This document shows positions 11,237 to 18,364 of a stretch of 36,634 bases of DNA, piece by piece; position 1 is the stretch's first letter, and each line of letters starts with the position of its first letter. The stretch covers positions 1 through 36,634 of the IMG/VR virus record IMGVR_UViG_3300042894_001737, one strand, 5' to 3'. The notes under the pieces are model-generated. The model was not told the DNA's origin and searched no databases. It saw only the letters and a list, made by a program, of their open reading frames with translations. Position numbers and translations under genes: made by a program. The DNA is from a virus.

Positions 11237-13818
11237 TATATAACCTCATCGGCGACAAGCCGCAGTTGTGAGACGACGGGCGTGAAGCTGGCGTCGTTTG
11301 ATGTGAGTATCGCGCGGGCTTGCACGCCCCAGGCCGAGGTTTCGGTATTCTCGACGCGGCCCCAGTCCGACCAGACGGGCGACCCGGCGGGGCTTGTCTG
11401 CGTCGTGCGGAATTCCACTTCGACGTCCACTTCGCCGCCGTCCACGCCGTCGAACGAAAGCCAGTCGTCGATGTTGCCGGTGCGGGTATCAATCTGGTCG
11501 AAGACATTGTCCGAAACCATGTCGATGACCGACCGCAGCCGCATTCGCTTCACAAGTCCGGCGTTGATGCCCGTTGCGAACGTGTAGGTGCCTGTCGGGA
11601 GTATCCCGCCTTCGAAGTCAATGTCGGCAACCGCGTCCACGTCGGCCCAGGTGTCAATCTGGCCGCTGCTGTCCAGCTTCAGCGTTGAGCCGACAAGGGT
11701 GACGCCCGACTTCGCGCCGGTAAAGGTTGCGTCTTCCTGCAGCGTGGCAATGCCGGTGTAGCCAATCGCCGTCGCGCCGCTGGTGGAGATGACGACGCTT
11801 GGCCCGTAGTTGTCGCCGCTGTCGCGGGCGCGCAGGACATATGCGCCGGGCTTAAGGGGAACGACGGCAATGGCCGTTGAGCCGGGAACTTCGTCCATGC
11901 TGACGGCATTGGCGAAGCTGGGCGAGGATGCCGCCGAATGCCGGATGATGATTGTGCCGCCATATCTGACGTCAAGATCCGGGTGCAGCGTCCATTTCAG
12001 GACTGCCAGCCCGCCCGCCGTCTGCAGCGTGAGGCCGGTAATTGCGGCAGGCAGCGCGCCCAGGCCAGACACCTCAAGCGCGCATGACGCGAAGGCCGAC
12101 GACACGCCGAGCCGCGAGATAGCCTTGACGCGGAATTCCCATTGCCCCGGCGTCCAGTCCAATAGCGTGAACGACAGGTTTTCCGTCCTGCCCTGGCGAA
12201 CCCAAGCGCCCCCGTTTACGCGGGCGTCGATGATATACTGGTCAACGTAAGGCGACGTCGAGCGCGGCCAAGTGAGGGCAACTTGCGTCTTCACCCCTGC
12301 CCCGTCGCGCGTCAGATAGAGGCTTTCGGCGGCGGTGGGGGAACCCGGTGGGGTGACTTTGAAGGCGTTCGGCAGCGTCGTGCGCGGGGCTGCGGCGTAT
12401 ATCTGGAATTCGCTTGAGGCCCAGTCATAGACCAGCGGCGAGGTTTCGCGCAGCGTCAACTGCGGCGCAATCACGGCCCCGGCCTCGCCGCTGCTGAGTT
12501 GCAGGTTCACGGCCGCGACGTCGAACGGCTTTGCTGAGAAGCCCCACCGCGCATAGTCCAGCGTCACGGTATCGCCGACCGTCGCCAGCCAGGCGCGCAG
12601 CTTGCCGTCGATTTGAACCGTCATTTGCCGGCGGTTGCGCTCAAGTTCAATCTTGGCGAGGCGCTGTGCCATTGATGCCGAAATCGTGAAGGGCAGCGTG
12701 ATGTCGCGCCAGACAACGTCACCGCCGTCTTCCGTGATGTAAGCCGCCGACTGATACGCCGGAAAATCGTCTGCTACCCAGTCGTTATCGGGCGAAACGA
12801 AAGTACCGCGTACAGCGTTGAAGTTCTGCGCCCGGCTGATGCGCGTGGCGACGGACAGGCCCGCCTCGGTGCAGTCGTCCGCCGTCAGGGCAAGCGTCGG
12901 CGTCCGGTAGGCTCCGGCATAGATGTGCCACTGCCCCGCCTGCCAGCCGCAGGTCCCGGCCATTGCCGTCAGCAGCCCTTCAATGACTTCTTGCGGCGCA
13001 ACGCTGGTGTCGATGAGGCCGTTGCAGGTATAGCGCCGCTCCGTGCCGCCGCCCACCTTGGCAACCGTTTCGTCGCAGACGTTCGCCGCCTCAATCAAAT
13101 CGGCTTCGTTTATCCCGTCGGCCGCCCCGATTTCAGCGCCCAGGCCGTAGATTGGGTCGGCCATGTAGTCCGCAAGGCACAGCGCCGGGTTGGTCTTATA
13201 GCTGCGCGAACCCGTGCGCGGGTCAAGGATGTCTTTCTTGCCTTTGACGTAGACGGATACGTTCGGGATTCCATTGGGATAGATGTCGGGATTGAAGCCG
13301 AAGTTGAGGAATATCGCCGCCCGGTTCTGCAGCTTGTGCGCGGTTGTCCAGAGTTCGGGGGACGCAGCCCGCAGCGAGGCAAACGCGCCGCCGGTTCCGG
13401 TGCCAGTGTGCTTTTCATAGGACAGCCAGCCGACGTATCGCCCAACCACGTTGCCGTCGAAGTCGATTGCCAGTTCGCCGTTCAGGTAGACCGAGCCAAT
13501 CATTTCGACCGGGTGCGCTGCGAGGGCGATGACCATGTCGAGCGCTTGGTCCGTGATGCCCCCAGCGTCGCGCGTGTTCAGGAAAACAATCGTGCCGCCG
13601 ACAACCGCTTCGCCGTAGATGATTTTGTGCGGCGCGATGGGCTGGCGCGACGTAACCGTGCGGCCCTTCATTGTCCCGGTATCGACGTTCTTCCGCGTCA
13701 GCGCTGCTGCTGCGGTGGACAGCAAAAGCGAAGCGCCGAGGTTGACGACGAAGCCGGCCAAGACGCTGGACGCGGCAAAGGTTGAAATCGCGGCGAACGC
13801 GGCGGCAAGAAACGGCAT
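11236..13818 (-). CDS. Tail tip / host-specificity protein J-like
   Basis: This 860-residue protein, the largest of the late operon, begins with a hydrophobic helix region (1-40). The conserved tip-protein start follows: a poly-Ala stretch and 'TSRQPIAPHKIIYGEAVVGG' (about 57-76), then 'TNPALCLADYM' and 'GLGAEIGAADGINEADL' typical of the central J/gpS-like hub. The C-terminal half (about 500-780) carries fibronectin-III-like repeats (PTAAESLYLTRDGAGVKTQV and 'VDQYIIDARVNGGAW'). It probably forms the central tail fibre that touches the receptor. Starts 1 bp upstream of the NlpC-like gene end. Confidence 0.85.
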   Translation of the reverse strand: MPFLAAAFAAISTFAASSVLAGFVVNLGASLLLSTAAAALTRKNVDTGTMKGRTVTSRQPIAPHKIIYGEAVVGGTIVFLNTRDAGGITDQALDMVIALAAHPVEMIGSVYLNGELAIDFDGNVVGRYVGWLSYEKHTGTGTGGAFASLRAASPELWTTAHKLQNRAAIFLNFGFNPDIYPNGIPNVSVYVKGKKDILDPRTGSRSYKTNPALCLADYMADPIYGLGAEIGAADGINEADLIEAANVCDETVAKVGGGTERRYTCNGLIDTSVAPQEVIEGLLTAMAGTCGWQAGQWHIYAGAYRTPTLALTADDCTEAGLSVATRISRAQNFNAVRGTFVSPDNDWVADDFPAYQSAAYITEDGGDVVWRDITLPFTISASMAQRLAKIELERNRRQMTVQIDGKLRAWLATVGDTVTLDYARWGFSAKPFDVAAVNLQLSSGEAGAVIAPQLTLRETSPLVYDWASSEFQIYAAAPRTTLPNAFKVTPPGSPTAAESLYLTRDGAGVKTQVALTWPRSTSPYVDQYIIDARVNGGAWVRQGRTENLSFTLLDWTPGQWEFRVKAISRLGVSSAFASCALEVSGLGALPAAITGLTLQTAGGLAVLKWTLHPDLDVRYGGTIIIRHSAASSPSFANAVSMDEVPGSTAIAVVPLKPGAYVLRARDSGDNYGPSVVISTSGATAIGYTGIATLQEDATFTGAKSGVTLVGSTLKLDSSGQIDTWADVDAVADIDFEGGILPTGTYTFATGINAGLVKRMRLRSVIDMVSDNVFDQIDTRTGNIDDWLSFDGVDGGEVDVEVEFRTTQTSPAGSPVWSDWGRVENTETSAWGVQARAILTSNDASFTPVVSQLRLVADEVI

Positions 13819-14764: not shown

Positions 14765-15345
14765 ATCGCTTCCCGCGCGGTGATGCTGAAGCGGTAGATG
14801 TCGCCAAGCCCGATTTGCGCCGGGATGGGCGATGTGGCGCGCAGCAGGACGCCGGGGCTGGTGACGTTGAGCGCCGCATTGTCAGCCGGCACCGAGCGCA
14901 GCGGCGGCACAAAGTTCAGCGTTGCGTTACCAGCCGTCGGCGGCGCGTCTGCCGTCAACTGGTACAGGCGGAAGTCGGCGCCCGTGCCGATAGAAAAGCA
15001 GTCGCCCGCGTAAAGCCCGGTTCCCGTCCAGCCGTCTGTCAGCAGCGTTGAGCCTGACTGTCCGCCGCCTTTGACGAGGGGCGTGCCGAGGCCGGTGGGG
15101 TTGTCGATGTAGGGGTCGCGCAGAACGAACGTGCCAGCAGCGCCGCCAAGGGCTGCGAAGAAGGCGGACAGCTTGCGCCCGTCGCGCGTCTGCGTTGCGG
15201 CGAACTCAATCTCATACTCCCACCAGCGTCCGCCCCAGTCCTGCACTTGCTGCGTGCCGGTGAATGGGCTGGTGGTGACGGCAACGGCGGCGCGCAGGGT
15301 GCGCGTCATGTTCGTGACCAGCGTCAGGGGAAGTTCGTCGTTCAT
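14761..15345 (-). CDS. Minor tail protein (distal tail-like)
   Basis: This 194-residue protein is mostly beta-strand. It carries 'DWGGRWWEYEIEFAATQTRD' (about 36-55) and 'AGTFVLRDPYIDNPTG' (about 70-85), which recur in phage minor tail proteins at the start of the tip complex. It directly follows the tape-measure gene, as lambda gpM/L or a Dit protein would. The start overlaps the tape-measure stop by one base. Confidence 0.7.
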   Translation of the reverse strand: MNDELPLTLVTNMTRTLRAAVAVTTSPFTGTQQVQDWGGRWWEYEIEFAATQTRDGRKLSAFFAALGGAAGTFVLRDPYIDNPTGLGTPLVKGGGQSGSTLLTDGWTGTGLYAGDCFSIGTGADFRLYQLTADAPPTAGNATLNFVPPLRSVPADNAALNVTSPGVLLRATSPIPAQIGLGDIYRFSITAREAI

Positions 15346-17309
15346 CAGTAGCCCCTCGCGCCAGCGGCCCGGTTCGCAGATACGGACTGCCGCAGAATGT
15401 CCGGCATCGCCTGGCGCAAGCGCGCGTCAATCTGCGCGGCTGTTCCTTCAACTGCGCCGCGCGCGTCGATGTTCACCACCGTGCCGCCGCCGCCCGATGA
15501 CCGCACGCCCAGCTTCCCGCCGATGCGGGTGAGCGGCATGATTGCTTCCGGCCCGGCTTCGCCCATCAGGCCCGCGCCGTTCGCCATCGGGAACACGGTG
15601 GGGCTGTTGACGACGCCGCCAGAGGCGAAGGCTGTGACGCGGCCATTTGAGAAGGCGTTGCCGTTGGCGTTGAGGTTAAACGCGCCCGCGAAGGCACCGC
15701 CGACACCGCCATCGCCGAACAAGCCCTTGCTAAAGGCAGAGAACGCTTCGTTTGCAAGGGTGTCTGCCAGCGAGGCGAGAAGGTTCGACACGGCGTCCCG
15801 CGCAGATTCGGCGCCGGTTACAAACGAGCCGAACGCGCTGCTGAAGGCGGACTCCATCGACTGGGCCGCACTGCTGGCCTCTCCAGCCTTGTCCTTCAGG
15901 TCGTCCACGGCCCGGTTAAACGTGTCCTGGCTGATTTCGCCAGCGGCAAGCAGCGTGTTCAGCTTGCCGAGTTCAATGCCGTATTTTTCCGCCTCGGTGC
16001 GCGTCTGGGCGAAGACCCGCGCCGCCTCGCGCTGCAGCTCGTTGGCTTCCTTTTGGGCTGCGCCACCGCCGGTCTTCGGGTCGGGCGGGTTCATGCGCTT
16101 ATCAAGGGCGTTCTGCGCATCAGTGCCGCCGGGCGTGCGGCCGCCATAGGCAATCGCCGCCTGTCCGCCGGGGCTGAATTCCACAGCCATTTGCGCAAGC
16201 TGTCCATCTGCCGCAAGGCGGCCCTGCGCCAGCGCCCACGCGGCTTTCGCGGCGGCAAGAAGCGTATTTGCCAGCCCTGCGGCGGCGCCATCTGCGGAGG
16301 AAAACGCCCCCGCAAGGCCAGATGCAATCGAGGAAAGCTGGCCCGCTAGGTCAACGGCGAGCGATAACGGGTTCGCCATGCCTTCCATCTTGGTCTGGAC
16401 TTCGCCCGCCTGCAGCACGATTTCCGCCATCTGCCCGTAAACGGCCTGCAGCGGCGCCGGCATCGCATCGACGCTGCGGTAGGTGTCCAGAAGGGCATCG
16501 CTGACGCTCTGAGCGGCCTCTGCCTGTTCGGTCAGTCCTTCAGCATCGTTCAGAGCCGAAAGCGCATTGCGCAGGGCGTCAACCTGGCCTTCGGTCATGC
16601 CGAAGTTGTCGTTGAGCACGCGGATTGTCTCGACAGTCCGCGAGAAGCCGTCGTCAGACATGACAACCTTGTCTTGAAGGTTGGTCATCGACGTGACGAC
16701 TGCAGCTATAACCGCGTTAGTCGCTGTCATAGCGTTGACCAAGGTTACCGCCTGCTGTGCAACAAGCGCATCCCGCGCCGCCGTGGCAAGCCCGCCGTAT
16801 TTCTCGACCAGCTGGTCTGTCGGCGCCCGCGCGGCGTCGGCTGCGGCGATGTAAGCGTTCACGGCCGAAGCAAGCTCAGTGACCGCCTCGCCAGACGTCT
16901 TCGCCTTCTCGCCAGTGGAAAAGAGTATGCCGGCAAGCGGGATAAGGATGGCCGAAGCAGTACCGGCAAGCACGCCGAACAATCCAAAGCCAGACAGAAG
17001 CTGCGGAAGCTGTTGCGCCAGCGCGCGGGTGGCGGAGGTGCCGCCCGCAATCTGCACCGCCAAATCCTGCACCTGAAAGCCGACGTTCTGCAGGCCAGCC
17101 CTAGACGCGCCTGCGCTGCGGTTCAGGTCGTTGAACGCCCGCGCACCGTCCCGCGACACCCGCTGCCCGAACTGGACAACCTGCCCGCCGGTCTTCTGCA
17201 GGCTGCCGTCCATTGCGCCAAGCTGCCGCCGGGCAGATGCCACGCCCTTGTCGAACGCGGCGCTTTCCAGCGCGAGAACGGCACGAAGGGCGCCAATTTC
17301 TTCAGCCAT
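15345..17309 (-). CDS. Tail tape-measure protein
   Basis: This 654-residue protein should fill the tail tube, set its length and be ejected with the DNA. It is nearly all helix and alanine-rich. Hydrophobic segments lie at about 105-130 (LSGFGLFGVLAGTASAILIP). The C-terminus carries 'FASGGVVNSPTVFPMANGAG' and 'MGEAGPEAIMPLTR', a signature of lambda-type tape measures. At about 1.5 Angstrom per residue (the usual helix rule) 654 residues suggest a tail near 100 nm. It follows the frameshifted assembly chaperones, as expected. Confidence 0.92.
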   Translation of the reverse strand: MAEEIGALRAVLALESAAFDKGVASARRQLGAMDGSLQKTGGQVVQFGQRVSRDGARAFNDLNRSAGASRAGLQNVGFQVQDLAVQIAGGTSATRALAQQLPQLLSGFGLFGVLAGTASAILIPLAGILFSTGEKAKTSGEAVTELASAVNAYIAAADAARAPTDQLVEKYGGLATAARDALVAQQAVTLVNAMTATNAVIAAVVTSMTNLQDKVVMSDDGFSRTVETIRVLNDNFGMTEGQVDALRNALSALNDAEGLTEQAEAAQSVSDALLDTYRSVDAMPAPLQAVYGQMAEIVLQAGEVQTKMEGMANPLSLAVDLAGQLSSIASGLAGAFSSADGAAAGLANTLLAAAKAAWALAQGRLAADGQLAQMAVEFSPGGQAAIAYGGRTPGGTDAQNALDKRMNPPDPKTGGGAAQKEANELQREAARVFAQTRTEAEKYGIELGKLNTLLAAGEISQDTFNRAVDDLKDKAGEASSAAQSMESAFSSAFGSFVTGAESARDAVSNLLASLADTLANEAFSAFSKGLFGDGGVGGAFAGAFNLNANGNAFSNGRVTAFASGGVVNSPTVFPMANGAGLMGEAGPEAIMPLTRIGGKLGVRSSGGGGTVVNIDARGAVEGTAAQIDARLRQAMPDILRQSVSANRAAGARGY

Positions 17310-17643
17310 CGCGCGCCTCCGCTGCTTGTATCATGTCGCCCCACGCCTGCATCGACGCCCAGATTTCATCCGGGTCTTGCGCGGGCTTCGGCTTCCCGTC
17401 GGGGAAAACCTTGTCGAATTTTGGCATCCGCTTGGGGTCATTCACGGCGAACGACACAAGGTAAGCCAGAGAATAGGCGCGCCCGTCTTCGACGCGCTTC
17501 AGGCGGGCCTCGCGGTCAGACGCGGCCTGCATGATGACTGCGGCTTCCCGCAGCGTGACGTCCCAGAAGTCGGACGGGGCGAGGCCAAGGCCGACCCACG
17601 CCCGCAGAAGCGCCGACCAGTCTAGGCCGTCGGCGCTTCGCCG
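17302..17643 (-). CDS. Frameshift-dependent tail assembly chaperone part (T-like, Phage_TAC_6-like)
   Basis: This frame has no start codon matching its conserved beginning: 'GLDWSALLRAWVGLGLAPSD' followed by 'FWDVTLREAAVIM', the hallmark of GTA-like small chaperones. It opens only 9 bp upstream of the slippery site. I infer that it is made as the C-terminal part of a -1 frameshift fusion with the gene at 17622-17942 (about 100 + 113 residues). An internal ATG at 17532 could also give a 76-residue product. As in lambda G/GT, the fusion would recruit the tape measure to the tail tube. It overlaps the tape-measure start by 8 bp. Confidence 0.8.
   Translation of the reverse strand, partial: RRSADGLDWSALLRAWVGLGLAPSDFWDVTLREAAVIMQAASDREARLKRVEDGRAYSLAYLVSFAVNDPKRMPKFDKVFPDGKPKPAQDPDEIWASMQAWGDMIQAAEARDG
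17607..17639 (-). promoter_or_regulatory. Frameshift-stimulating RNA hairpin
   Basis: On the minus strand GAAGCGCCGAC (17639-17629) pairs perfectly with GTCGGCGCTTC (17617-17607). This gives an 11-bp stem with an 11-nt loop that contains the zero-frame TAG stop. It begins 3 nt after the slippery heptamer; with the lowest pairs melted the spacing is 5-6 nt, the normal distance for a stimulatory structure. It would stall ribosomes on the slippery codons. Confidence 0.8.
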
Positions 17644-17942
17644 TTTCCCGGTTCAGCATCCTTCGGCGGGAACGCGAGGCGCAGCCCTTCGGCGAGGATG
17701 CGGTCAACTTCGACGGGGCCGATGTCGTCCATTATCTCGCCTGCTGTTTCCAGCGTGATGCCGCCAATCGCCGCCCAAAGAAGCAGGCGGAATGACAGGG
17801 TGCGCTTGCCAGACACGGCAGTATCGGCAAGCAAAGCCTCCAGCGACTGCCCGCTGCGCTCTTCGACCCGGCAAATCGCGTTCGTGGTGAACCGAAGTTC
17901 AAACGACTTGCCGAGTGCGTCGAACGTCACGCCGTTCCGCAT
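17622..17942 (-). CDS. Tail assembly chaperone (G-like, GTA-family Phage_TAC_11-like)
   Basis: This 106-residue protein follows the tail tube gene and precedes the tape measure, the place of lambda gpG. The sequence shows a strand pair (GVTFDALGKSFELRF), a helix NAICRVEERSGQSLEALLAD and 'LSFRLLLWAAIGGITLETAGEIMDDIG', fitting the GTA-type chaperone family. Near its end the codons CCG GGA AAC contain a slippery heptamer, so a share of ribosomes would shift into the -1 frame. The zero-frame product ends at TAG 19-21 nt later. Start overlaps the tube-gene stop by one base. Confidence 0.85.
   Translation of the reverse strand: MRNGVTFDALGKSFELRFTTNAICRVEERSGQSLEALLADTAVSGKRTLSFRLLLWAAIGGITLETAGEIMDDIGPVEVDRILAEGLRLAFPPKDAEPGNGEAPTA
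17643..17649 (-). promoter_or_regulatory. -1 ribosomal frameshift slippery site GGGAAAC
   Basis: Read in the minus-strand zero frame as G GGA AAC, this fits the X XXY YYZ rule (X=G, Y=A, Z=C). Lambda uses GGGAAAG at the same gene junction. Slipping back one base moves ribosomes into the frame of the T-like ORF, which has no start codon of its own at the conserved N-terminus. An 11-bp hairpin follows. Confidence 0.85.
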
Positions 17943-18364
17943 CAGGCGTAAACCGGCGCGCCAGTGACTTTCAGCGTGATGCTGGCGGTCATCTTGTCTT
18001 CCATCGGCGCGCTGCGCTCATAGCCTGTGAGATAGGCCAGGAACGTAATCGTGCGGGCCGGGGAATACTGCGAGAACGTAGCGCGATAGGTGCGCGGCGC
18101 CCGCTCCAGCGTGATGCCGCGCAGAAGCGCGTCGGTCGTGCCGCCGGTGTCCCACAGCATTTCGAACGACGCTTCGCCGTAGTCGATGAGGCCGGCGATG
18201 AATTCGCGCGCCATGTTGGCGGACGACGACGAGGTCACGTCGATGATGTCGCGCGTTGGATTGGGCGGCGTGAACGACATGATGGTGCCGATGGCATTCG
18301 TCGGCGTGGTCGCGGGGGAGACATCGCTGACGGCCAGCGCAATGCCATATCCAATATCGGGCAT
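17942..18364 (-). CDS. Major tail tube protein
   Basis: This 140-residue protein sits between tail-completion genes and the assembly chaperones, the position of the tube subunit. It is strand-rich with one helix (SANMAREFIAGLIDYGEASFE, about 48-67). This matches the lambda gpV / GTA tail-tube fold: beta barrel, single helix, and 'F-x-x-Y-S-P-A-R-T-I-T-F-x-A' near the C-terminus. Subunits stack as hexamers into the tail. A 55-bp gap separates it from the upstream gene. Confidence 0.85.
   Translation of the reverse strand: MPDIGYGIALAVSDVSPATTPTNAIGTIMSFTPPNPTRDIIDVTSSSSANMAREFIAGLIDYGEASFEMLWDTGGTTDALLRGITLERAPRTYRATFSQYSPARTITFLAYLTGYERSAPMEDKMTASITLKVTGAPVYA

Follow-up and report, generated by a model that had tools for sequence, protein, structure and literature searches.

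The two short reading frames G and T of this phage are very probably joined by a -1 programmed ribosomal frameshift of the lambda G/GT type, because of the position of the junction, the -1 phase, an in-phase slippery heptamer, the missing start codon of T, a downstream hairpin and the conservation of the heptamer in divergent relatives. The mechanism is already well known, and the present case is ordinary in kind. The window, i.e. the whole analysed stretch of 36,634 nucleotides, carries the genes in the order tail tube, G, T and tape measure on its minus strand, with the following features.

17942 to 18364, minus strand: tail tube protein gene (PF16461, 3.7e-14; phrog_158, major tail protein)
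17622 to 17942, minus strand: G, a short tail assembly chaperone, zero frame, 106 amino acids, stop TAG at 17624-17622
17653 to 17655, minus strand: T-frame stop TGA closing the -1 frame just upstream of the heptamer
17302 to 17652, minus strand: T, -1 frame, from ACC at 17652 to TGA at 17304-17302
17643 to 17649, minus strand: slippery heptamer GGGAAAC, phased G GGA AAC; an in-phase heptamer also occurs in 45 of 62 related loci
17607 to 17639, minus strand: perfect 11-bp stem-loop, probable stimulatory element, starting 3 nt 3' of the heptamer
17622 to 17624, minus strand: zero-frame stop TAG within the hairpin loop, overlapping the T-frame codons CTA GAC
15345 to 17309, minus strand: tape measure protein gene (phrog_1716, tape measure, 1.6e-19), whose ATG overlaps the end of T

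On the minus strand, the G frame ends with ...GAT GCT GAA CCG GGA AAC GGC GAA GCG CCG ACG GCC TAG, and GGGAAAC at 17649-17643 lies in phase, as an earlier note on this DNA had read it. A ribosome translating G would be expected to pause there with its P site on GGA, its A site on AAC and the 11-bp hairpin ahead, and a minority would slip back by one base, shifting from GGA to GGG and from AAC to AAA. The slipped ribosomes would bypass the UAG in the loop and then read T, and the outcome would be a little GT fusion next to abundant G. In tail assembly, the predicted roles are for G to cover the tape measure protein and for T to bring in tail tube subunits.

The perfect hairpin reported in the earlier note at 17639-17607, three nucleotides after the heptamer and with the zero-frame stop in its loop, is borne out by the sequence. 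Its arms GAAGCGCCGAC/GTCGGCGCTTC (17639-17629 and 17617-17607) begin after GGC, and the loop of 11 nt, GGCCTAGACTG, includes the TAG. The isolated hairpin has an energy of -20.7 kcal/mol and is the minimum free energy structure in 71 nt of context (z -2.9), while the 60 nt downstream alone give a z of only -1.0 and a competing fold of similar energy. The spacer of 3 nt is shorter than the 5-9 nt usually found between heptamer and structure, and the word "textbook" chosen in the earlier note is slightly generous in this respect. In relatives, folding predicts stems of 13-14 bp at the same place but of different sequence in three loci (L104, L004 and L115), in all of which UAGAC sits at the apex or close to it. 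A further hairpin (GCCGYC/GRCGGC, spacer of 6 nt) is found in 13 Rhizobium-type prophages and phages and is paired in all sequences, its covariation being no better than in shuffles of this clade. Folding over the 60 nt downstream of the heptamer gives a modest mean z of -1.4 across 45 loci. Because of these modest z-scores and the lack of excess covariation in one clade, the role of the hairpin is less certain than that of the heptamer. The heptamer might work without it, the hairpin being an incidental by-product of GC-rich coding in both frames, as the weak z-scores of several relatives and the covariation result would allow. We consider this unlikely, since the 36.6-kb window has no other perfect hairpin of at least 11 bp with a loop of 3-15 nt, barring a poly-C/poly-G run at the contig end, since shuffling the 60 nt that follow the heptamer produces one in 13 of 20000 cases, and since the hairpin is invariant in three relatives and has distinct strong counterparts at the same position in the three loci named above. 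The run at the contig start (positions 1-62) is a perfect inverted repeat of poly-C, CCCCATGGGG and poly-G, and has the appearance of an end artefact of the assembly or library.

The T frame reads TGA ACC GGG AAA around its opening and is thus open from 3 nt 5' of the heptamer, not from 9 bp before it as had been stated. No ATG, GTG or TTG precedes the conserved core of T; the earliest is the ATG at 17532, about 39 codons in and within the conserved domain, which agrees with the claim that T has no start codon. The GC3 signal follows frame 0 up to the junction and frame -1 beyond it, and the zero-frame TAG is contained in the T-frame codons CTA GAC for Leu-Asp of the conserved [LIV]DW motif, so that xTA GAC TGG of T is read as UAG in G. 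Translation of T as a separate gene, started in the overlap or by re-initiation after the G stop, is known from its homologues in gene transfer agents (GTAs), where an ATG or GTG overlaps the G stop (ATGA/GTGA) in 21 of 33 GTA-type pairs from Rhodobacteraceae and 20 of 32 from Sphingomonadaceae. For the phage it is very improbable, as a start at 17532 would drop the conserved GLDWSALLRAW...FW core and the T frame is shut 3 nt upstream of the heptamer. T is almost certainly made only in fusion to G, as the C-terminal part of a GT protein with a predicted length of about 213 amino acids.

Relatives were gathered via T, the tail tube protein and the major capsid protein, and later by an iterated profile search. 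A scan of bacterial genomes by T alignment yielded no relatives, whereas the capsid protein search did find them. In the first set of relatives, GGGAAAC or GGGAAAG occurs in phase 19-46 nt before the G stop (L002, L003, L104, L010, L011, L012, L090 and L069, the Paracoccus phages Psul1 (L013) and Pben1 (L015), the Rhizobium phage RHph_Y3_1 (L111) and the plasmid-prophages of Devosia (L114) and Phaeobacter (L115)). Relatives with 41-95% T identity and more distant ones retain the same in-phase heptamer. L104 and L115 have no other entry point to T, as their T-frame stop sits immediately before the heptamer. For scoring, an in-phase GGGAAA[ACG] or AAAAAA[ACG] no more than 75 nt from the G stop was counted as heptamer in 62 distinct alphaproteobacterial phage-type loci (phages and prophages). 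It is present in 45 of them, and in 19 of the 32 clusters formed by T at 60% identity; as the loci are related to one another, these counts do not represent independent events. In the last 60 nt of G, the heptamer occupies 43 of 1302 in-phase positions, compared to 0 and 2 of 1302 in the other phases, and one of 6916 in-phase positions in the body of the G gene. In a comparison of the window with L002 and L003, 79 of 640 positions in G and T vary, but none within the 43 nt of heptamer and hairpin, and the longest invariant run of 51 nt extends from -3 to +47 around the heptamer. The chance of zero changes in these 43 nt is about 0.003, and any run of that length has a permutation P of 0.07. 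As judged mainly from its conservation, the heptamer/hairpin site exceeds chance expectation. In the comparison of homologues proposed in the earlier note, the heptamer and stem are invariant in close relatives, and its claim that a -1 frameshift joins the two chaperone frames is supported by architecture and conservation alike. Homologues that lack the heptamer and have a strong T start, which it had named as counter-evidence, turned up only in other lineages (a few Sphingomonadales or viral loci and most GTAs of Rhodobacteraceae and Sphingomonadaceae); since heptamer and T start exclude each other there, they support the frameshift rather than refute it.

Slippage of the RNA polymerase would also give products of mixed frame and is indistinguishable from ribosomal slippage at the level of DNA. 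It usually needs long runs of A or T, but the runs in GGGAAAC are only three bases long, and the heptamer is fixed in a codon phase which RNA polymerase would not require, making transcriptional slippage a still more remote explanation than a separate T gene. A sequencing error or a decayed gene, as might be suspected in a metagenomic virus contig, can practically be dismissed and is refuted by the recurrence of the junction in independent contigs, isolated phages and bacterial genomes.

In eleven related phage loci, T lies in the -1 frame but lacks a start codon, and a canonical heptamer is missing as well. The search revealed no recognisable slip site in the Agrobacterium phage Rivra (L014, 1992-2022) or in L163, L191 and L087, all with a start-less T in the -1 phase. 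In the Labrenzia phage LagS-V1 (L112), the G stop (TAA or TGA) follows immediately after GGGAAAG. The T relatives of a Lactococcus, a Brochothrix and an Enterococcus phage (L016, L017, L018) have their own ATG, although TTTTTTC is present in phase at a distance of 79-91 nt upstream of the G stop. In the Rhizobium phage RHph_TM3_3_14B (L109), the -1 frame of G runs on into a T-like protein, and a minus-strand gene is annotated close to the position of the T frame (12897-13124). The public records of Psul1, Pben1 and Rivra place the T start about 60-110 nt too late and show T as a shortened gene. For the phage studied here, the result is mainly a correction of annotation, with T being the end of a GT fusion rather than a shortened gene.

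Some of the loci without heptamer point to a possible second class of slip sites. A zero-frame CCT preceded by C is found in the last 45 nt of G in 23 of 32 phage and GTA loci that lack both T start and heptamer, compared to 9 of 126 other loci and 4 of 4624 codons in the bodies of G. Examples without T start and GGGAAA heptamer are L125, L152, L073, L184, L074 and L160 among the phage-type and L280, L290, L296, L373, L381 and L384 among the GTA-type loci. Near the end of G, the motif takes the form CGC CCT C or AAC CCT C, and only these forms upstream of the core are informative, since in some GTA cases the motif simply reflects Pro-Trp or Pro-Phe residues of T. Because the motif was spotted and counted in the same data, it should be regarded as a lead only. 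It is possible that a subset of phages and GTAs uses a C CCU slip site replacing GGGAAA; that tRNA-Pro slips from CCU to CCC at such sites is a guess.

A view on the proteins relates both frames to known chaperone families. T matches PF09550 (Phage_TAC_6) with 31.5 bits, above the curated cut-off of 23.4. G of the window matches phrog_2115 ("tail protein", 1.3e-7) and has no match to PF11836 (Phage_TAC_11 / GTA gp10), and its relatives reach 14.7-21.1 bits with this model, under the cut-off of 27.8. A profile of 12 phage G proteins matches one of 15 GTA G proteins with a probability of 98.6% (E 5.5e-16); by this profile comparison, G is a distant homologue of the GTA gp10 family. The profiles of phage T and GTA T match across a short L.L.P..FW.LT core. 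Fold searches of the PDB with models of G and T gave no significant match, with p2 ORF12 (E 2.0) as the sole phage tail protein that ranked high for G. The tape measure protein of 654 amino acids matches RcGTA_tape (1.6e-31) and remains under the cut-off of NF058675 (109.8 bits versus 220). Because of this value and the presence of genes for terminase, portal, protease, capsid and a VapE-like primase, the gene content identifies the whole window as a phage and not as an RcGTA-type gene transfer agent. A viral contig of 6.9 kb (L022, IMGVR_UViG_3300042465_002708) encodes a major capsid protein 100% identical to that of the window.

The closest known parallel is the tail assembly chaperone frameshift of lambda G/GT, reportedly described by Xu, Hendrix and Duda in 2004, as cited in a review (PMC5009743). 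The lambda slip site, GGGAAAG, differs from the GGGAAAC found here only in the last base and occurs in L011, L012 and L013. Both systems share overlapping frames between the tube and tape measure genes, a -1 slip near the end of the first frame and a resulting fusion. Unlike in lambda, the heptamer ends in C, a strong downstream hairpin carries the stop in its loop, and the proteins belong to other families (a TAC_11-like G and a TAC_6 T). In lambda, G binds the tape measure protein and T the tail subunits, at a G to GT ratio of about 30:1 (PMC5009743), and chaperone genes related to those of HK97 showed 6-7% frameshifting in a reporter (PMC3711429). In phage Adele of the Vandenendeviridae, the first chaperone gene ends in a conserved -1 slip, and the second frame is misannotated in public records (PMC12846349); these phages differ from that of the window in using a GTTTTT motif and being myoviruses. 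In one study of Rhodobacter capsulatus phages, most of those described are stated by the authors to have programmed frameshift sequences in their chaperone genes (PMC8601537).

Homologous proteins in the same order before the tape measure gene are found in RcGTA, namely the pair of g10 and an rcc01693-family protein (PF11836, PF09550/TIGR02216), but in the GTAs of Rhodobacteraceae T mostly has its own start and no slip site, unlike in the window. PF09550 was sought in sampled genomes of Rhodobacteraceae, Hyphomicrobiales, Sphingomonadaceae and Caulobacterales and in further Hyphomicrobiales regions, and the G-T pairs were classified in 144 loci of the GTA-type comparison. None of the 33 and 32 GTA-type pairs from Rhodobacteraceae and Sphingomonadaceae contains a GGGAAA or AAAAAA heptamer. 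The Hyphomicrobiales contribute 28 pairs in -1 phase without T start (9 with a standard heptamer, 15 with another XXXYYYZ), and four Caulobacterales loci have GGGAAAG and no T start. The view of the earlier note that the second GTA chaperone is often a separate gene holds for Rhodobacteraceae and Sphingomonadaceae, while many RcGTA-type clusters of Hyphomicrobiales and some of Caulobacterales look frameshifted. Within a fixed 45-nt span, the standard heptamer is found in 12 of 34 pairs in -1 phase without T start versus 1 of 81 with one (Fisher 9e-7), and in the set without start it occurs in 12 of 34 cases in phase versus 1 of 68 in the other phases. In the GTA-type relatives, the heptamer and a start codon of T are mutually exclusive. 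RcGTA-type models recognise the adjacent tape measure and distal tail proteins of the loci checked, with the tape measure proteins outside Rhodobacteraceae falling below the cut-off of the RcGTA-type model. According to these patterns, the frameshift may have survived in some domesticated gene transfer agents and given way to a separate start codon in others. A joint reading, to which we would assign slightly less than an even chance, is that the chaperone frameshift is ancestral and was kept in the RcGTA-type GTAs of Hyphomicrobiales and some Caulobacterales, was replaced by a stop-start overlap in Rhodobacteraceae and Sphingomonadaceae, and uses C CCU in a subset. A literature search with subscription papers mostly outside its scope found no paper on a chaperone frameshift in RcGTA-type GTAs. 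The contrast between phage and GTA, which is computational and tentative, carries the added interest of the present case, posing the question whether a fixed G:GT ratio is necessary for the control of tail length in GTAs or whether domestication cost some of them the fusion. In four GTA-type loci (L288, L295, L300 and L377), the G stop (TAA or TGA) follows immediately after GGGAAAG, and a zero-frame ribosome would therefore reach the stop directly past the slip site.
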